Assembly (NCBI RefSeq): GCF_000317635.1
Contig: NC_019779.1
Coordinates: 2,542,001-2,606,000 of the forward strand
Source: Halothece sp. PCC 7418
GTDB taxonomy: Bacteria; Cyanobacteriota; Cyanobacteriia; Cyanobacteriales; Rubidibacteraceae
Length of the DNA: 64,000 nt
Direction: 5' to 3'
The notes under the pieces are model-generated. The model saw only the letters and a list, made by a program, of their open reading frames with translations. It did no database searches and was not told the DNA's origin. Positions within the stretch are counted from its first letter, which is position 1; each line of letters starts with the position of its first letter. The position numbers and the translations under genes were made by a program. Of this stretch, positions 42,769 through 52,543 are shown piece by piece.

Positions 42769-45159
42769 ATGACACAACTCCCTCAGCAATGTTCAGGATT
42801 ATCTGATCAAGTCAACACGATTTTAGAGTTACTGCGAGAGGAAAGCAGTCTCACGCCAAAACCGAAAACAGTAATTGTCGAGGCGGATTTAAAGAAAGCG
42901 ATCGCGCCCAAGTTTTATATTGTCTTTGCGGGTGCATTTAGTGCGGGAAAATCCATGTTGATTAATGCGCTATTAGAGCGAGAATTATTATATAGTGCAG
43001 AAGGACACGCCACAGGAACGGAATGTTCTATTGAGTACGCCGAAGCAGGAGAAGAAAGAGTTATTTTAACTTTTCTCTCACAAGCCGAGATTTTAGAACA
43101 AGTGAATATTCTTTGTTCTCACTTAGAGTTTGATCCCTTAACAGAAGTAGAAATTAATCAGTCAGAAGCGGTAGCAACTTACCAAGAAGATTGCAAATAT
43201 GTCATTCAAGCTGAAGGCGGAGAAGGACGTTCTGAACTGGCTAAAAAAGCAAGAGCATTATCTTTATTATTAGAAGGCTATCAGAAAAATCCTGATCGGA
43301 TTGGGGAGAAAGAAAATAAAACTTACTCCATGGGAGAATTAAATTTTTATAACCTCACTGAAGCTGCAACTTATGCGCGTCGCGGAAGTAATAGTGCGGT
43401 GTTAAAACGGTTGCAATATTATTGTCATCATCCCCTATTAGCGGATGGAAATGTCATTATTGATACCCCTGGAATTGATGCGCCTGTCGAGCGCGATCGC
43501 GCTTTAACTTATGATAAGATTAAAAGCCCTGATACCTCAGCAGTGGTTTGTGTTTTAAAGCCAGCTTCTGCGGGAGAAATGACAACAGAAGAAACGGAAC
43601 TTTTAGAACTGATTAAAGAAAATCCAGGCGTACGCGATCGTGTTTTTTATGTCTTTAATCGCATTGATGAAACTTGGTATAATGCTCAATTGAGGCAACG
43701 GTTAGAAGGGTTAGTTTCAGAACAGTTTTACAGCAGCGATCGCGTTTATCAAACCAGTGCTTTACTAGGGTTTTATGGAAGTCAAATTAAACAAACCAGT
43801 GAGCGCGATCGGTTTGGCTTAGACTCCATTTTTTCTGATAGTGTGAGAACCCTAGGCGGTGAAGAAGAAACCCCACAATTTGTCAGTGAATTTAATAATT
43901 ATTGTGGTAATTCTGGCAAACTGGCAAATAGCATTTTTCGGGTGTCTGTTCACGGTTATGAAACCCCAAATCAAAACTATATCCGAATCTTGAGCGAATG
44001 GGGTAATCCTCTGATTAATCAACTCATTGAAGATAGTGGAATTGAAACTTTTCGCAGCGCGATCGCGCGTTATTTAACTGAAGAAAAACGTCCTCAACTC
44101 TTTGTTACCCTTGCGGATGATTTAGAAGAACTTTGTATTCCTCTCGTTGAACATTGGAAAGCAGTCTATCGTGACTTAATCAGCCAACCGCAAGAAATTG
44201 ATGCAATGAAACAACAAGAATTGCAACAACTGAATCAGCAATTAAAATCGGTTGCAAAGGAATTTGAGGAACATCTTTCTCAAGAAGTCAATGATCTGAT
44301 TGTGAATGGAGATAGTGCATTTGAAGCCGACTTCAATAAATTACAAGCGCGAATGGTAAGTCGCCTCGATGAATTATTACAAACTTTTTCTGTCCGCGAT
44401 GCGTATAGTCGCGCCACGGCGAGTCATCCGAATAATTCTACTGCGCCTTTGATTGCAGTTTTAGTAGAGGCGTTATATTATCTTGCTAACGAATTAGAAA
44501 AAGTGCTAGAAGAAAGTGCAGAAGTTGTCATTGAAAACTACTTTCAACGTTTGCAAGAAAAATTACGCCATCAAGACTATTATCGTCGCCTTTATCGTTT
44601 ATTAGGAGACGATGGTGGAATTGAAGATCAACTAAAAACTCTTAAAGAAACCTTACTCATCGCGATCAAAAATGCAGCGCATACAGAATGTGATCGCTAC
44701 GTGCGAGAAAGTCCTCGTTTTTATGATGAGGGAACCTTTTCCATCTATCAATTTCGCCAAACCTTACAACAAACCTCCCAAAGTTATGATGCAGAAAGTA
44801 TGGTAGAAGCTGAACCTTCAATTCGTCAGTTATTGAAGCTAGACTTTGAACCTAAAGTGGATAAAACGATTCGTAGTAACTTTCGACAAACTATCAATAA
44901 TACCTTGAAAAAAAATTTGCTACCGATGGCGAAAGAACAAGAAGAAGCGATTCTTCAACAATACGAAAAAGCACGAACCAATTTAGAGCAAACCCTCGCA
45001 GAAGAAGCAGAAGGAAAGATTGCTAAAAATCTACAAATGCAGACAGAAATCTTAGCAAAAGTCAAGCGATATAACGAGGCTGTACAAGGGATTAATTCTT
45101 GTTTACAGCAGTTAGAGTTATACGAAAGCCAACTGAGTGAAATCAGTTTACCGCACTAA
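42769..45159 (+). CDS. bacterial dynamin-like GTPase
   Basis: 796 residues. The GTPase domain has P-loop GAFSAGKS at 55-62, a G2 threonine region (ATGTECSIEY), G3 DTPGID near 232 and a G4-type NRID (VFNRIDET), where the usual NKxD lysine is arginine. From about residue 450 the protein is mostly long helices (stalk and trunk), ending in coiled coil rich in E, Q and K. No clear membrane segment is seen. Bacterial dynamins remodel membranes and some help against phage; the role here is unknown. It is the first of four same-strand genes. Confidence 0.85.
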   Translation: MTQLPQQCSGLSDQVNTILELLREESSLTPKPKTVIVEADLKKAIAPKFYIVFAGAFSAGKSMLINALLERELLYSAEGHATGTECSIEYAEAGEERVILTFLSQAEILEQVNILCSHLEFDPLTEVEINQSEAVATYQEDCKYVIQAEGGEGRSELAKKARALSLLLEGYQKNPDRIGEKENKTYSMGELNFYNLTEAATYARRGSNSAVLKRLQYYCHHPLLADGNVIIDTPGIDAPVERDRALTYDKIKSPDTSAVVCVLKPASAGEMTTEETELLELIKENPGVRDRVFYVFNRIDETWYNAQLRQRLEGLVSEQFYSSDRVYQTSALLGFYGSQIKQTSERDRFGLDSIFSDSVRTLGGEEETPQFVSEFNNYCGNSGKLANSIFRVSVHGYETPNQNYIRILSEWGNPLINQLIEDSGIETFRSAIARYLTEEKRPQLFVTLADDLEELCIPLVEHWKAVYRDLISQPQEIDAMKQQELQQLNQQLKSVAKEFEEHLSQEVNDLIVNGDSAFEADFNKLQARMVSRLDELLQTFSVRDAYSRATASHPNNSTAPLIAVLVEALYYLANELEKVLEESAEVVIENYFQRLQEKLRHQDYYRRLYRLLGDDGGIEDQLKTLKETLLIAIKNAAHTECDRYVRESPRFYDEGTFSIYQFRQTLQQTSQSYDAESMVEAEPSIRQLLKLDFEPKVDKTIRSNFRQTINNTLKKNLLPMAKEQEEAILQQYEKARTNLEQTLAEEAEGKIAKNLQMQTEILAKVKRYNEAVQGINSCLQQLELYESQLSEISLPH

Positions 45160-45165
45160 AAATCT

Positions 45166-45190
45166 AGGGTGGGTATTTGTTGCCCACCTT
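45166..45190. terminator. GGTGGG/CCCACC hairpin after the dynamin gene
   Basis: GGTGGG (45168-45173) pairs with CCCACC (45183-45188) around a 9-base loop. It is the same hairpin type found at 57586 and 63661. There is no proper T run, so it may only partly reduce read-through into the small genes downstream. Confidence 0.45.
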
Positions 45191-45232
45191 CTCTCTGTGT
45201 TAAATTTTAAGCATTATACTTTGGAGGAAGTA

Positions 45233-45538
45233 ATGACTAATAATAAGAACTTTTTGGATGATAAAGATGTTGTATCTATTTTGTCCTATCCTTTTAATTT
45301 TGAAAGAACAATGAAAATCGAAGAAATTAAAAAAATAATGAATGAATGGGCAGCAGAAAAATTTAGACAAGGTTTATTTCCAGAATTTATTAAAAACTGT
45401 GAAGTTTTGAAGCAAGATGGGAAAGGCTGGAAGAAAGGACAAGTTAAAATTAAATTTGAGTTTATCCCTGATGAACCTAATCCAGAAGAAGAAAACAAGA
45501 CAACAGAAAATCAATCCTTAAATGACTTTCGGAATTAA
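45233..45538 (+). CDS. KGK-domain small protein, copy 1
   Basis: 101 residues from the ATG at 45233, which has a very strong RBS (GGAGGAAG) 5 bases upstream. It resembles the KGK family of small cyanobacterial proteins: an N-terminal acidic region, a helix (IKKIMNEWAAEKFRQG), then GKGWKKGQVKIKFEFIPDE, where the family has W-KGK. The C-terminus is acidic and disordered. Function is unknown. It lies 73 bp downstream of the dynamin gene and is followed by a related copy. Confidence 0.7.
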   Translation: MTNNKNFLDDKDVVSILSYPFNFERTMKIEEIKKIMNEWAAEKFRQGLFPEFIKNCEVLKQDGKGWKKGQVKIKFEFIPDEPNPEEENKTTENQSLNDFRN

Positions 45539-45547
45539 TATAAAACT

Positions 45548-45582
45548 GTAAGTTGGGTTTTCTTTTATGCGACTCAGCTTAC
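45548..45582. repeat. 11-bp stem hairpin between the KGK genes
   Basis: GTAAGTTGGGT (45548-45558) pairs with ACTCAGCTTAC (45572-45582), with two G-T pairs. The GTAAGTTGGGTTT form is a repeat type seen in many cyanobacterial spacers. It may act as a pause or processing site in the operon. Confidence 0.6.
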
Positions 45583-45618
45583 TTTATTGTCAATTAAATG
45601 CTTAAAGCTAATTGAATT

Positions 45619-45981
45619 ATGGAACAAGAATTTAAAATTAGATTAAACGAAAATGATGCTGTTGAAATCATAGATGAGCGAGAAAATAATCAAGAGCAAG
45701 TTTTTCTTCGCCATCCCATGTTCAAAATTAAAGATTTAATCAAGACAATTCAATGTAGATTATTAAATATTAGTCTCAATCAATTTAATGAAAACGATGA
45801 AAGGATTAACCATCGTAAAAAATGGATTACAGAAGGGATTAATTGTGAACTACTTCAACTAGGAAGTCAGCAATGGAAAAAGGGTAAACTCCGAGTTAAT
45901 GTTACAGTTGAATTTATTCCTGATGAAGTTGAATCCCCTTTAGATGATGTACGTCAAGGAAGCAATCATTATGAATCGTAA
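45619..45981 (+). CDS. KGK-domain small protein, copy 2
   Basis: 120 residues. It shares the C-terminal core of copy 1: QWKKGKLRVNVTVEFIPDEV, with the KGK motif intact and the same I-P-D-E ending. The N-terminal half differs (IRLNENDAVEIIDERENN, then FLRHPMFKIKDLIKTIQ), so the two are distant paralogues. Function is unknown. Its last 11 bases overlap the start of the HNH gene, which indicates coupled translation. Start at 45619 is the only good ATG. Confidence 0.7.
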   Translation: MEQEFKIRLNENDAVEIIDERENNQEQVFLRHPMFKIKDLIKTIQCRLLNISLNQFNENDERINHRKKWITEGINCELLQLGSQQWKKGKLRVNVTVEFIPDEVESPLDDVRQGSNHYES

Positions 45982-46231
45982 TCGCTTCCAGAAGAAAACA
46001 TCGCGCATTTCCATCCCACCAGAAGTGAAAAATTATGTCTTCCAACGGGATAACTATCAATGTCGCAGTTGTGGGAAAACAGAAAAACAAACTACATTAG
46101 AACTGGATCATATTATTCCTATTGCTAATGGTGGATCAAATGATATCAGCAATTTACAAACCTTATGTCGGGGTTGTAATCAAAAGAAAAAACATCATTT
46201 TGATCAACGTTTTCGTCGTCACTTTTCTTAA
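45971..46231 (+). CDS. HNH endonuclease
   Basis: 86 residues from the ATG at 45971, overlapping the KGK gene by 11 bp. An in-frame start nine codons earlier would give a longer overlap. A standalone HNH domain: C31/C34 and C66/C69 form a zinc site (CRSCG, LCRGC), and LDHIIPIANGGSNDISNLQTL holds the catalytic H47 and N61. The last 15 residues are basic and rich in H, R and F. Such small HNH proteins occur as nicking nucleases or defence components. Its role here is unknown. Confidence 0.88.
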   Translation: MNRNRFQKKTSRISIPPEVKNYVFQRDNYQCRSCGKTEKQTTLELDHIIPIANGGSNDISNLQTLCRGCNQKKKHHFDQRFRRHFS

Positions 46232-46254: not shown

Positions 46255-46833
46255 TTATTGATTGAGTTCAAGTCCCTCATATAAATCAAATAATTGGAAC
46301 TCAACAGGAACAGACGACAAAGTAATTTTATCTTCTGGATTGGTGTATTCACAAAACAGCCAACGCTGAATATCGACTTTAGAATAGTATTCAAGATGTT
46401 GCTTATACTGATCGATCAGTAAATATTCTTGAAATGTGGAAAGACTACGATAGGCTTCAAATTTCTCATCTTTATCGTAGCTTTTAGTTGATTTGGAGAG
46501 AACTTCCGCAATCATTAAAGGATTCGTTACTGTATCATTGCGACCTTCTTGCAGTTTCACCGGATGAGAAACCACCATCACATCGGGATAAGTATAAATA
46601 TTAAAATTAGGAATCCACAGCCGTTGATCAGCAACAAAAATACTATAAGGTTGACCGCGAAGATTGACTCTTAGTAACGCATTAAGAATGCTTGCAATCT
46701 CATTATGATTTGGTGTTCCCCCAGTCATGGGAATAATTTCCCCATCAAGATACTCATGGCGTTGTTCAGATTGGATTTCCAATTCCAAATAGGCTTCTGG
46801 GGAATAGATTTTTCCTTCTAATTGCGTAATCAT
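46255..46833 (-). CDS. Uma2 family endonuclease-like protein
   Basis: 192 residues. Uma2 (DUF820) fold with YLDGEIIPMTGGTPNHNEI, YPDVMVVSHP and LMIAEVLSKSTKSYDKDEKFEAYRSL, followed by FQEYLLIDQ. The acidic D-E residues and the lysine of the nuclease core are present. Function in the cell is unknown. It is convergent with the HNH gene (stops 23 bp apart) and faces the gun4 unit in the same direction. The other Uma2 copy in this window is at 25828. Confidence 0.88.
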   Translation of the reverse strand: MITQLEGKIYSPEAYLELEIQSEQRHEYLDGEIIPMTGGTPNHNEIASILNALLRVNLRGQPYSIFVADQRLWIPNFNIYTYPDVMVVSHPVKLQEGRNDTVTNPLMIAEVLSKSTKSYDKDEKFEAYRSLSTFQEYLLIDQYKQHLEYYSKVDIQRWLFCEYTNPEDKITLSSVPVEFQLFDLYEGLELNQ

Positions 46834-49429: not shown

Positions 49430-50782
49430 TCACTGGTTGACTAACATGACACCACCTGAAGGAACAATTGTAATTCCTCTTCGTACAGGCTTAATCGCTG
49501 GTTGTGACGCTAATTTTAGCCTTAAATTAGCAAAAATTGTCCCAAAAATCAGTTTCATTTCATATAGAGAAAAAGCTGCACCAATACAAGCTCGGTTTCC
49601 GCCCCCAAAAGGAAAATATTGATAAGCACTAAACTGATTTTCTAGAAATCGCTCGGGTCGAAAACAATGATGATCCAGAAAGGTTTCTTCCCGATGATGG
49701 GCTAAATAAATACAGGGGACTAAAATGGTTTCTGGTGAAAATGACTGATGATGAAGCTGAATTGTTTCTTTAACTACTCTCGGTTGCGAAATCAAGGCAA
49801 TGGGATACAATCTTAATGTTTCTTTACAAATTGCCTCTAAATAGGGCAAATCAATTAAGGCTTGGGGAGAAGGAGACGATCCTAACGGTTGCATTTCCGC
49901 ACTTAATTTTGTCCACACTTGCGGGGAAGAATACACCCAATAAAACATCCAAGCGAGAGAAGAAGCTGTCGTTTCATGACCTAAAAATAATAGGGTAATC
50001 AGTTGATCGCGCAACTCTTGATCGCTCATCCCATTGCCATTTTCATCTTCAGCGGATAGAAGTAAACTTAAAATATCCGTTTGCTGGGAATAGTCTTGTT
50101 GGCGACGGTCTTGAATTTCAGCATAAATTAAATTATCGATCGCGCTTTGCTTGCGAACAAAATGTCCCCAAGGGCTATACTTTCCCCAATCAATTTGTAA
50201 CGGCGGGAAGAAAAATAAACTGGAATAAAAAGGATTTGTAATTGCGTCTAACAGTTCAGAAATTAATTGTTCTAACTTTTGAAATCGACTCCCTTCTTTC
50301 AGACCGAACACAACCCGCAAAATTACTTTTAATGTAATTTGAGCCATTAATTTTCGGCTGGAAAAAGGCTGATTTTTAGGGAGAGTGGGTAAAACTTCTT
50401 CTGTTAACTCACAAATCACATTTTGATAAAAAGACATCCGTTTCCCATGGAGAGGCGGAATTAATAACTTGCGCTGTCGTAAATGATCTTCTCCATCCAA
50501 CATAATCAGGGATTGATCCCCTGTAAAGGGACGGAAGACATGAGTGATTTTTCCCAGTTGAAATGTTCCAGAAGGAGCGGTAAAAATCGTTTCAAGGGCT
50601 TGAGGTTCACCAATAAAAAAGACATCTGGCGAGTTATTCCCTAAAATCCTAGCGGAAAAGATATCCCCATAACGATGTTGGTACTTAGCAAAAAAACGAA
50701 TGGGGTTTGCAATCAGTTCTAAAGTTTGCAAGAGGGGAGGGGTTTCTAAACTCGGAATGGTCTGCTTCATAGCGTTATACAA
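49430..50782 (-). CDS. cytochrome P450, CYP110-like, copy 1
   Basis: 450 residues. The heme-binding loop is FPFGGGNRACIG, with the cysteine that ligates iron. The I helix has LLFLGHETTASSLAW, with the proton-delivery threonine, and the K helix has ETLRLYP. PERFLENQF is the Arg of the ERR triad. The best family fit is CYP110, soluble P450s of cyanobacteria that hydroxylate fatty acids, alkanes or terpenes; the substrate is unknown. A related P450 is at 51182-52543 with a small repeat protein between. Confidence 0.93.
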   Translation of the reverse strand: MYNAMKQTIPSLETPPLLQTLELIANPIRFFAKYQHRYGDIFSARILGNNSPDVFFIGEPQALETIFTAPSGTFQLGKITHVFRPFTGDQSLIMLDGEDHLRQRKLLIPPLHGKRMSFYQNVICELTEEVLPTLPKNQPFSSRKLMAQITLKVILRVVFGLKEGSRFQKLEQLISELLDAITNPFYSSLFFFPPLQIDWGKYSPWGHFVRKQSAIDNLIYAEIQDRRQQDYSQQTDILSLLLSAEDENGNGMSDQELRDQLITLLFLGHETTASSLAWMFYWVYSSPQVWTKLSAEMQPLGSSPSPQALIDLPYLEAICKETLRLYPIALISQPRVVKETIQLHHQSFSPETILVPCIYLAHHREETFLDHHCFRPERFLENQFSAYQYFPFGGGNRACIGAAFSLYEMKLIFGTIFANLRLKLASQPAIKPVRRGITIVPSGGVMLVNQ

Positions 50783-50867: not shown

Positions 50868-51185
50868 ATGGCACTGTCCCTAAAAAATCGCAAACTACTG
50901 AATATTGGAATCGCCCCCCACGATGGAATCTTTTGCATTGGTATTTCTCCTCATGGTTTAATTTCCATTGGTGCAATTCCTCATGGTTTAATCTCTATTG
51001 GTTTAGTGCCTATGGGGCTTTTTTCAGTAGGTTTGGTTTCGATGGGAATTTTTTCCATGGGTCAAATTACCATGGGTGTTTTTAGTGTGGGACAACAAAA
51101 TATGTCTATTATGGAATTGAATGTGGGTGACGTTTCTTCGGATGAATTATCGGAAGACCATGAGATGGACGGTCATCATCATTAG
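50868..51185 (+). CDS. glycine-periodic pentad-repeat protein
   Basis: 105 residues. From residue 12 to 80 the sequence repeats about every five residues with glycine in position 2: IGISP, HGLIS, IGAIP, HGLIS, IGLVP, MGLFS, VGLVS, MGIFS, MGQIT, MGVFS, VGQQN. This should fold as a small hydrophobic solenoid or insert in a membrane. It differs from classical A(D/N)LXX pentapeptide repeats. The tail is acidic and ends in DGHHH, a possible metal site. Its stop overlaps the stop of the P450 gene at 51182 by 4 bp. Function is unknown. Confidence 0.72.
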   Translation: MALSLKNRKLLNIGIAPHDGIFCIGISPHGLISIGAIPHGLISIGLVPMGLFSVGLVSMGIFSMGQITMGVFSVGQQNMSIMELNVGDVSSDELSEDHEMDGHHH

Positions 51186-52543
51186 TAATTTTCTAAAGCC
51201 ATTTTAATGCCCCCTTTTGGTGCAATAGTAACCCCTCTTCTTACTGGCTTAACCGCTCTCTTTTCCAAGAGTTTTAATGAATATTGTTTTAAGATTGTCG
51301 CAATAACAATTTTCATTTCCATCATGGCAAAAACATCACCAACACAACGACGAATTCCGCCACCAAAAGGCATGAATTCATAAGGACTAAATTCTTTTTC
51401 TAAAAACCGTTCCGGTTGAAATTGATTGGGGTTGGGATAAATGTCTTCTCGGTGATGTAAGAGATAAATACAGGGCGCAAGAAACATTTCTGGTGGATAT
51501 TCATAATTCCCGACTGTCACAACAGATTTAGTAATCCGAGGAAAGGTAATAATTGCAACAGGATAAATGCGTAAGGTTTCTTTGCAAACTGCATCTAAAT
51601 AAGGGAGTTGATTCAGGGCTTTAATATCACTGCTATCAGAAATCGTTTCTAATTCAGCTAAGAGTTTCTCCCGCACTTCTGGGAATTTATGAATCCAATA
51701 AAAAGCCCAAGCTAAAGCAGTTGCGGTTGTTTCATGTCCAGCAAAAAGAAGGGTAATGAGTTGATCTCCTAATTCGGTATCACTCATGGGGTTTCCGTCT
51801 TCATCTTCTGCTGACATGAGTAAACTTAAAATATCGTTCCCCGTGGTTTGCTGATTATTTCGTCGTTCTTCAATTTCCCCTTGCAATAACTTATTAATTC
51901 CTTGCTGACGATTCAGAAAATTACGCCAAGGACTCCCTGGAAAATCTTGTTGAAAAATCGGGAAAAAGAGTAAACTAGAGCGCAAAACTGATCCCCCTGT
52001 TAATTCTAATAGCTTCACAAGAGGGGCTTTTAATTCTTGGTGGCGTTTCCCGTCAGAAATGCCAAAAACCGCTTGCATAATCACTTCTAAGGTGATATCT
52101 TGCATGGATGACCGCATGGTAAACGGTTTATTCGCGTCCCAAGTTTGTGTAACCTGCTGTGTGGTTTCAGCGATAATTTCCCCATAATGACGGATTTTTT
52201 CCCCATGAAAGGGCGGGTAAATTAGTTTCCGTTGACGATTATGATCTTCGCCATCGGTCACTAACATCGAGGTTTCTCCCACAATGGGAATTAAAATGTA
52301 GTTTCCGCGACCACTATCAAAATTGGCGCGATCGTTAGTCAGAATTTCTTGTATCGTTTCTGGGTGGGAGATAAAAACAAATGGTCTTCCTTTGCGAAAC
52401 TCCAGCATAAAGGGATCGCCAAAGGTTTGGGCTGATTTTTCTAAAAGATTCAGAGGATCGGCTGTCCACTGGATGAGTTGGCGAAAATTTGAAGTTTGAG
52501 GTGTGGGGGGAAGTTGTTGGGTGACAGAATTGGTTATTGTCAT
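51182..52543 (-). CDS. cytochrome P450, CYP110-like, copy 2
   Basis: 453 residues from the ATG at 52543; an in-frame TTG five codons earlier (52558) is less likely. Heme loop FMPFGGGIRRCVG, I helix LLFAGHETTATALAW, K helix ETLRIYP, and PERFLEKEF are all intact. It is clearly related to copy 1 along its full length, so the two are paralogues from an old duplication. A soluble oxidase acting on lipids or terpenoids is likely by family. No ferredoxin or reductase gene is adjacent. Convergent with the pentad-repeat gene. Confidence 0.93.
   Translation of the reverse strand: MTITNSVTQQLPPTPQTSNFRQLIQWTADPLNLLEKSAQTFGDPFMLEFRKGRPFVFISHPETIQEILTNDRANFDSGRGNYILIPIVGETSMLVTDGEDHNRQRKLIYPPFHGEKIRHYGEIIAETTQQVTQTWDANKPFTMRSSMQDITLEVIMQAVFGISDGKRHQELKAPLVKLLELTGGSVLRSSLLFFPIFQQDFPGSPWRNFLNRQQGINKLLQGEIEERRNNQQTTGNDILSLLMSAEDEDGNPMSDTELGDQLITLLFAGHETTATALAWAFYWIHKFPEVREKLLAELETISDSSDIKALNQLPYLDAVCKETLRIYPVAIITFPRITKSVVTVGNYEYPPEMFLAPCIYLLHHREDIYPNPNQFQPERFLEKEFSPYEFMPFGGGIRRCVGDVFAMMEMKIVIATILKQYSLKLLEKRAVKPVRRGVTIAPKGGIKMALENY

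Follow-up and report, generated by a model that had tools for sequence, protein, structure and literature searches.

A dynamin-like GTPase, KGK proteins and a small HNH nuclease in Halothece sp. PCC 7418: a candidate functional pair with a variable part between

In the cyanobacterium Halothece sp. PCC 7418, genes for a dynamin-like protein (DLP), two KGK-domain proteins and a small HNH nuclease follow one another on the same strand. They lie in a stretch of 64,000 nucleotides (contig NC_019779.1, positions 2,542,001 to 2,606,000), called the window here, whose own numbering is used below. A sequence-only reading had described this row and proposed from its layout that it could be an undescribed system of the defence type. 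The row is more than a chance arrangement. Comparative evidence supports the DLP and HNH genes as an apparently old pair whose members tend to be retained or lost jointly, and it is highly probable that the two form a functional unit. The row comprises the following features.

42769..45159, + strand: dynamin-like GTPase of the SynDLP or KGK clade, 796 amino acids (aa); Pfam Dynamin_N, phmmer match to 7zw6
45166..45191, + strand: hairpin in the DLP-KGK1 gap, a copy of a GGTGGG..CCCACC repeat, not terminator-like
45233..45538, + strand: KGK-domain protein 1 (KGK1), 101 aa; PF08872, 45.1 bits
45548..45582, + strand: hairpin in the KGK1-KGK2 gap, not terminator-like
45619..45981, + strand: KGK-domain protein 2 (KGK2), 120 aa; PF08872, 75.7 bits; AlphaFold2 mean pLDDT 85.7
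45971..46231, + strand: small HNH nuclease, 86 aa (ATG 45971) or 95 aa (ATG 45944); HNH_5, 80.3 bits

The gene row and its members

The order and strand of the four genes and the gaps of 73 bp (DLP to KGK1) and 80 bp (KGK1 to KGK2) are as first described. The 11-bp overlap of KGK2 and HNH is right if the nuclease starts at ATG 45971. A short form starting near this codon is favoured by the orthologue alignment, in which residue 16 of the 95-aa open reading frame (ORF) is methionine in 49 of 58 orthologues and only 12 reach its first residues. The Pfam cut-offs (Dynamin_N 27, PF08872 25.6 and HNH_5 27.5 bits) are exceeded by the DLP (57.5 bits), by both KGK copies and by the nuclease. KGK1 and KGK2, taken earlier for distant paralogues, align with 33% identity. 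The counterparts of KGK1 at the first KGK position in two genomes of the same genus are 51 and 53% identical to it.

The window DLP matches SynDLP (Slr0869 of Synechocystis, PDB 7zw6) with 1084 bits over residues 1-787 of 796 in a phmmer search. By homology it is a full-length SynDLP relative with a Dynamin_N GTPase domain, and it falls in the KGK clade, whose mark of a downstream KGK gene appears here as two PF08872 genes. This clade was defined when 121 cyanobacterial DLPs were sorted into six clades, one of which typically carries a KGK protein downstream; the function of the KGK family was called enigmatic in the same paper (Jilly et al. 2018, PMC5827413). SynDLP has been assigned to the KGK clade, its structure has been solved and it fuses liposomes in vitro (Gewehr et al. 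2023, PMC10104851). It binds anionic thylakoid lipids, is apparently non-essential and is expected by its authors to be restrained by accessory proteins; among KGK-clade DLPs, membrane fusion and oligomerisation are published for SynDLP only, as far as the consulted parts of these papers extend (PMC10104851, PMC9950537). In the five genomes taken as the genus Synechocystis, the best SynDLP copy has 73% identity and none is near-identical.

The claim of an undescribed system stands in part. The linkage of DLP and KGK was already published (PMC5827413, PMC10104851), while the DLP-HNH unit with KGK genes between is supported by the present comparison. The window DLP resembles SynDLP (PDB 7zw6, 9em7-9em9) in full-length homology and in its downstream KGK genes; it differs in that the published accounts, in the parts consulted, name KGK and no HNH partner. 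No description of an HNH partner of a KGK-clade DLP was found in the literature within reach, which excluded most subscription papers and the gene-cluster supplement of Jilly 2018. Other bacterial dynamins are more distant. DynA of Bacillus subtilis is also a bacterial DLP and fuses membranes without a need for nucleotide; however, the window DLP scores 41.5 bits against the NCBIfam DynA model, whose cut-off is 1600. DynA is a two-headed fusion and is not known to have KGK or HNH partners. LeoA and LeoBC are dynamin GTPases listed in a defence database, but their matches to the window DLP are weak and partial (42 and 31 bits).

Outside the window, at C1:1622736-1623083 (L126:4737-5084), lies a 3′ fragment of a second DLP of 116 residues. 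It is 89% identical to the window DLP, is followed by a hairpin of the GGTGGG..CCCACC type and is the remnant of a duplicate. The two hairpins of the row had been thought to separate expression levels. The first, at 45168, has a folding energy of -15.9 kcal/mol (z -4.5) and is one of 57 genome copies of this repeat; the second, at 45548, has -13.7 kcal/mol (z -3.4). A terminator scan places neither among terminator-like sites, and the suggested role is left without support.

The nuclease belongs to the HNH family by its HNH_5 score and by its catalytic and zinc residues. D55, H56, N70, N79, C40, C43, C75 and C78 (95-aa numbering) are kept in 57-58 of 58 orthologues; the assignment of catalytic roles among them follows general knowledge of the family. 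A C-terminal D-x-R-F-x-R-x-F tail is kept in 50-58 of the 58 orthologues per position and may be a docking site. The nearest folds to the predicted structure (pLDDT 76, a lower confidence) are McrA, Cas9 HNH and CBASS Cap5. The protein shares an HNH domain, by sequence and by model, and the D-H, N and Cys4 positions with McrA, Gme, Cap5 and IscB-type nucleases, but unlike them it is a stand-alone protein of about 80-100 aa devoid of a recognition domain.

Co-occurrence, layout and inheritance

The recurrence of KGK and HNH genes with the DLP in other cyanobacteria, suggested earlier as a check, was examined in 386 genomes of the phylum, one per species. The DLP is found in 92 genomes, whole or nearly whole in 86 and broken in 6; the broken set includes short fragments in G237 (120 bits) and G328 (55 bits), and a fragment in G121 (37 bits) is counted as an absence. 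HNH orthologues were accepted at 82 bits or more, which 80 genomes pass. The edge of this cut-off is not sharp because the next scores reach 75 bits, from partial or more distant genes (G135, G296, G095). An HNH orthologue is present in 78 of the 92 DLP genomes, broken copies included, versus 2 of 294 genomes that lack the DLP; when only intact DLPs are counted the contrast is 73/86 versus 7/300. KGK genes occur in 79 of 92 DLP genomes versus 13 of 294 others.

Since all three genes are concentrated in one order (104 genomes), the count was repeated inside it. There, the HNH orthologue accompanies 70 of 82 DLPs versus 2 of 22 genomes that lack one (65/76 versus 7/28 for whole DLPs only), and KGK accompanies 72/82 versus 8/22. 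Within-family shuffles, which rest on family labels and not on a species tree, gave at most 67 HNH co-occurrences in 100,000 trials versus the 70 observed; the KGK count of 72 and the strict HNH count with whole DLPs each have p 2e-5. There are 22 DLP genomes whose HNH orthologue is located beyond the DLP region retrieved. Such retention in the absence of linkage points to a function in common more than to a common position.

DLP regions of up to 12 kb were taken from the 92 genomes, 85 of them with a DLP ORF longer than 1,900 bp. Among these 85 loci the layout is DLP-KGK-HNH in 40, DLP-KGK in 12, DLP-HNH in 12 and DLP alone in 21; absences are upper bounds because some regions stop at contig ends. 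Thus the order is not peculiar to this strain, an outcome that would have spoken against the earlier proposal. The HNH gene is downstream of the DLP in 52 of 85 loci, 12 of them lacking KGK, and at least one KGK gene is downstream in 52 of 85. Judged from the first start codon, HNH overlaps the last KGK gene by 4 bp in 9 of the 40 complete loci and by 35-38 bp in 3. Any other gene family is found in 11 of the 92 regions at most, and the top one, a U32 peptidase, is confined to a single family. In a set of named genomes (Spirulina, Microcoleus, Nostoc, Planktothrix, Phormidium, Leptolyngbya and others) that partly overlaps the larger sample, HNH lies downstream of the DLP in 19 of 33 loci, three of the 36 loci taken being cut by contig ends with no gene. 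At 22 separate HNH loci (20 from DLP genomes and 2 from others), KGK is beside HNH in 7 and absent in 15, and two further loci hold a KGK-HNH pair away from any DLP.

The inheritance of the pair was followed by trees and by searches of mobile DNA. In a quick-method tree of 85 DLP rows, the ten multi-member families are separated with the minimum of 9 changes, one family having 75% support. DLP and HNH identities correlate across 72 genomes (r = 0.81, Mantel p 0.001). Searches for the DLP in 72,556 plasmid and 50,697 phage records gave no match, nor did a search of viral contigs that reaches close relatives only. HNH domains as such are common on phages and plasmids. Among the matches listed, identities reach 50% on plasmids and 52% on phages, with one further phage record in the 60-80% band; in viral contigs they reach 55% over part of the query among the 80 matches listed. 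Judged by these comparisons, DLP-HNH is a chromosomal and mostly vertical trait.

KGK genes as the variable part

The number of KGK copies per DLP locus ranges from 0 to 5. Among 12 same-family genome pairs with a DLP identity of at least 0.90, drawn from 44 genomes holding all three genes, the median identity is 0.93 for DLP, 0.92 for HNH and 0.60 for KGK. Four pairs with clear KGK counterparts give dN/dS values of 0.08-0.39 for KGK, 0.03-0.14 for DLP and 0.06-0.15 for HNH. For three other pairs the KGK values are 0.54-0.74, from partly aligning copies that may not be orthologous. Positive selection on KGK was considered and rejected, dN/dS being below 1 in 12 of 12 comparisons. Several pairs, not all, in the last KGK group align well at the 3′ end and poorly at the 5′ end, which suggests mosaic exchange. 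The conserved core consists of a W-x-KGK hairpin and a C-terminal SPLDDIR helix. On this comparative evidence KGK appears as the variable, fast-evolving part between a stable DLP and a stable HNH. The KGK structural model, which is good, finds nothing in the PDB at E <= 0.001 or with Z >= 2, and nothing viral at E <= 0.001. An origin of KGK as a viral gene was also rejected; the searches of phage and plasmid records gave no phage match and one weak plasmid match (Calothrix).

The occurrence of KGK genes mostly away from DLP or HNH neighbours would have counted against the sequence-only reading. By genome this is not so, 79 of 92 KGK genomes holding a DLP; by gene count it is, with 102 KGK ORFs in the 92 DLP regions versus 241 KGK matches in the 92 KGK-bearing genomes, two approximate figures from different search methods. 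Elsewhere, some KGK genes stand beside HNH alone and others in unrelated operons. Two contexts recur among the 18 fetched orphan KGK loci and two more that were inspected. In four loci (L202, L208, L128, L129) KGK lies between a cytochrome c assembly protein and TilS, the neighbours of L208 being assigned by scan and the others judged from N-termini; one of the two neighbours is present in L206, L209 and L211. In four others KGK precedes a DUF952-type gene (L194, L197, L199 with a 4-bp overlap, L203 with a 16-bp gap), assigned by scan in L197 and by clustering in the rest. KGK found in so many contexts has the look of a small adaptor or regulator of general use.

Several KGK proteins stand out in other ways. 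Those of L128 and L129 carry a long acidic low-complexity tail (492 and 441 aa). Downstream of a DLP-KGK-HNH row, L086:4642-6138 encodes a 498-aa protein with one KGK match and, by eye, KGK-like W..G.L repeats. A third KGK gene of the Halothece genome lies outside the window at C1:2464956-2465300 (L127:4957-5301), with an AAA ATPase, a DUF1257 protein and an LRV-repeat protein as neighbours; the first two are presumably Ycf46 and Ycf35.

Candidate functions of the module

The best available explanation, held tentatively and at less than even confidence, is that the row encodes a stress-inducible membrane-guarding module in which the DLP would remodel membrane, KGK would regulate and HNH would cut DNA. 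The DLP would bind anionic membrane lipids and then fuse or patch damaged membrane. KGK accessory factors might restrain the self-assembling GTPase, perhaps the nuclease too, or steer both to their targets. HNH could cut DNA that becomes exposed there, for instance phage DNA on injection or DNA that has leaked or been trapped. The oligomer structure of SynDLP is solved, and for work on its role in the cell a nuclease that is kept or lost with it offers a genetic handle in three genes. If the pair works together, membrane remodelling would be joined to DNA cutting, and no such bacterial dynamin was found in the literature searched. For the KGK proteins it would be the first testable role suggested for a family called enigmatic in the 2018 paper.

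Stress induction is suggested by expression in Synechocystis. In a lexA mutant at OD 0.5, slr0868, slr0869, slr0870 and slr0871, taken as neighbours from their numbers, are up 16.1-, 8.0-, 6.3- and 8.0-fold, and genes for salt stress and motility appear in the same list; ssr1473 is up 6.9-fold (PMC4759255). It has been suggested that the SOS response is not among the functions of this LexA, and the consulted part of the paper reports no direct binding to the slr0868-slr0871 promoter (PMC4759255). The 85 upstream regions were scanned for LexA and NtcA motifs, best matches with at most one mismatch being counted. The LexA box RGTACNNNDGTWCB gave 2 matches versus 5.6 in single-base shuffles, and an NtcA-type motif gave 43 versus 34.8, no clear excess; both consensus sequences are assumed from general background. 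Going by locus numbering, ssr1473 may be the HNH gene, an idea not used as evidence. The LexA box TTTTGWTNAC (PMC4759255) gave 26 matches versus 19.0 in shuffles, again no clear excess.

A number of observations weigh against the membrane-guarding module. Control by a conserved LexA box was rejected, no clear excess being seen in the upstream regions, which leaves room for an effect of lexA that is indirect or confined to Synechocystis; the responsive slr0870 and slr0871 are only putative KGK genes. A tree of 80 HNH rows and 84 columns needs 13 family changes where the minimum is 9, which implies some transfer or poor resolution. The neighbouring cytochrome P450 gene, examined as a control, is also associated with the DLP inside the order (79/82 versus 15/22, p 0.00025 within families), so that gene-poor genomes account for part of the co-occurrence signal; for HNH the contrast is far bigger than for this control. 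At the threshold used, 14 of 92 DLP genomes lack the HNH orthologue, the DLP stands alone in 21 of 85 loci, KGK-HNH distances reach 3.4 kb, and about 139 of the 241 KGK genes lie outside DLP regions. Partner binding, DNA cleavage and a membrane location of HNH are putative.

Anti-phage immunity is a possible, though unlikely, alternative, and the same may be said of a defence role in general. KGK proteins would sense phage factors or be blocked by them, HNH would cut phage or host DNA, and the DLP would seal or sacrifice the membrane, the whole being inherited vertically. The copy number of KGK and its fast, mosaic-looking divergence, not shared by DLP and HNH, fit this idea, as do the solved folds nearest to the HNH model, McrA, Cas9 HNH and CBASS Cap5. 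There is also a precedent in DynA, which protects Bacillus populations from phage (PMC8844932). A more specific and more doubtful version is a vertical innate immunity in which the DLP, as an analogue of the Mx-type antiviral dynamins of eukaryotes, and HNH would be coupled via hypervariable mosaic KGK adaptors that sense infection or membrane damage.

The genomic context argues the other way. PADLOC at E <= 1e-10 found 61 families in the 145 nearest flanking proteins (145 of 164 eligible were scanned) versus 70 in 141 proteins from 20 arbitrary loci, no clear excess. These are family counts and not protein counts, as one protein may match many models; related genomes contribute flanks that cannot be treated as independent, and type III CRISPR proteins are among the controls. 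The commonest flank families, DrmC, GlgB-like and mad3, have 5, 4 and 4 proteins versus a control maximum of 2. On the window proteins PADLOC gives weak and partial matches (LeoA 42 bits for the DLP, DpdF 36 bits for HNH). With no full model match, no defence-island neighbourhood and no mobile distribution, the locus does not correspond to a known anti-phage defence system. The flanks, the absence of the DLP from the plasmid, phage and viral collections (the last at the reach of close relatives) and a DLP tree that tracks taxonomy leave the proposed defence-type locus without contextual backing, and KGK dN/dS values below 1 throughout also speak against immunity.

Shared regulation alone is again possible but unlikely, to a similar degree. 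Here the genes would belong to a LexA, salt or redox stress regulon, and HNH would serve a separate DNA repair or turnover. The joint de-repression of slr0868-slr0871 with salt-stress genes agrees with it, as does the lack of adjacent KGK at 15 of the 22 HNH loci away from the DLP. However, unlinked genes are still co-retained, suggesting joint function over a shared promoter, and the LexA boxes show no clear enrichment.

A toxin-antitoxin-like pair, with KGK as antitoxin of HNH and the DLP adjacent by accident, is improbable. KGK does precede HNH, often with a 4-bp overlap, and KGK-HNH pairs exist away from the DLP; but the putative toxin is not always with its antitoxin, 12 of 85 loci being DLP-HNH with no KGK, 11 HNH-bearing genomes have no KGK match at all, and KGK is common in the absence of HNH and in unrelated operons. 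The least probable proposal, and one already weakened, is that HNH is a selfish or homing hitch-hiker. Small HNH genes are indeed frequent in phages and mobile elements; the orthologues of this one, however, are 51-79% identical to the window protein, often in the same place and under purifying selection, diverge in correlation with the DLP and are nearly absent where the DLP is.

Downstream of the row, the window holds other genes. A Uma2-family gene lies directly after HNH on the opposite strand (46255-46833), and this family is found in 8 of 92 DLP regions. Two adjacent cytochrome P450 genes, about 45% identical, occupy 49430-50782 and about 51200-52519, and a 105-aa ORF of short GLISIG-type repeats (about 50868-51185) lies between them.

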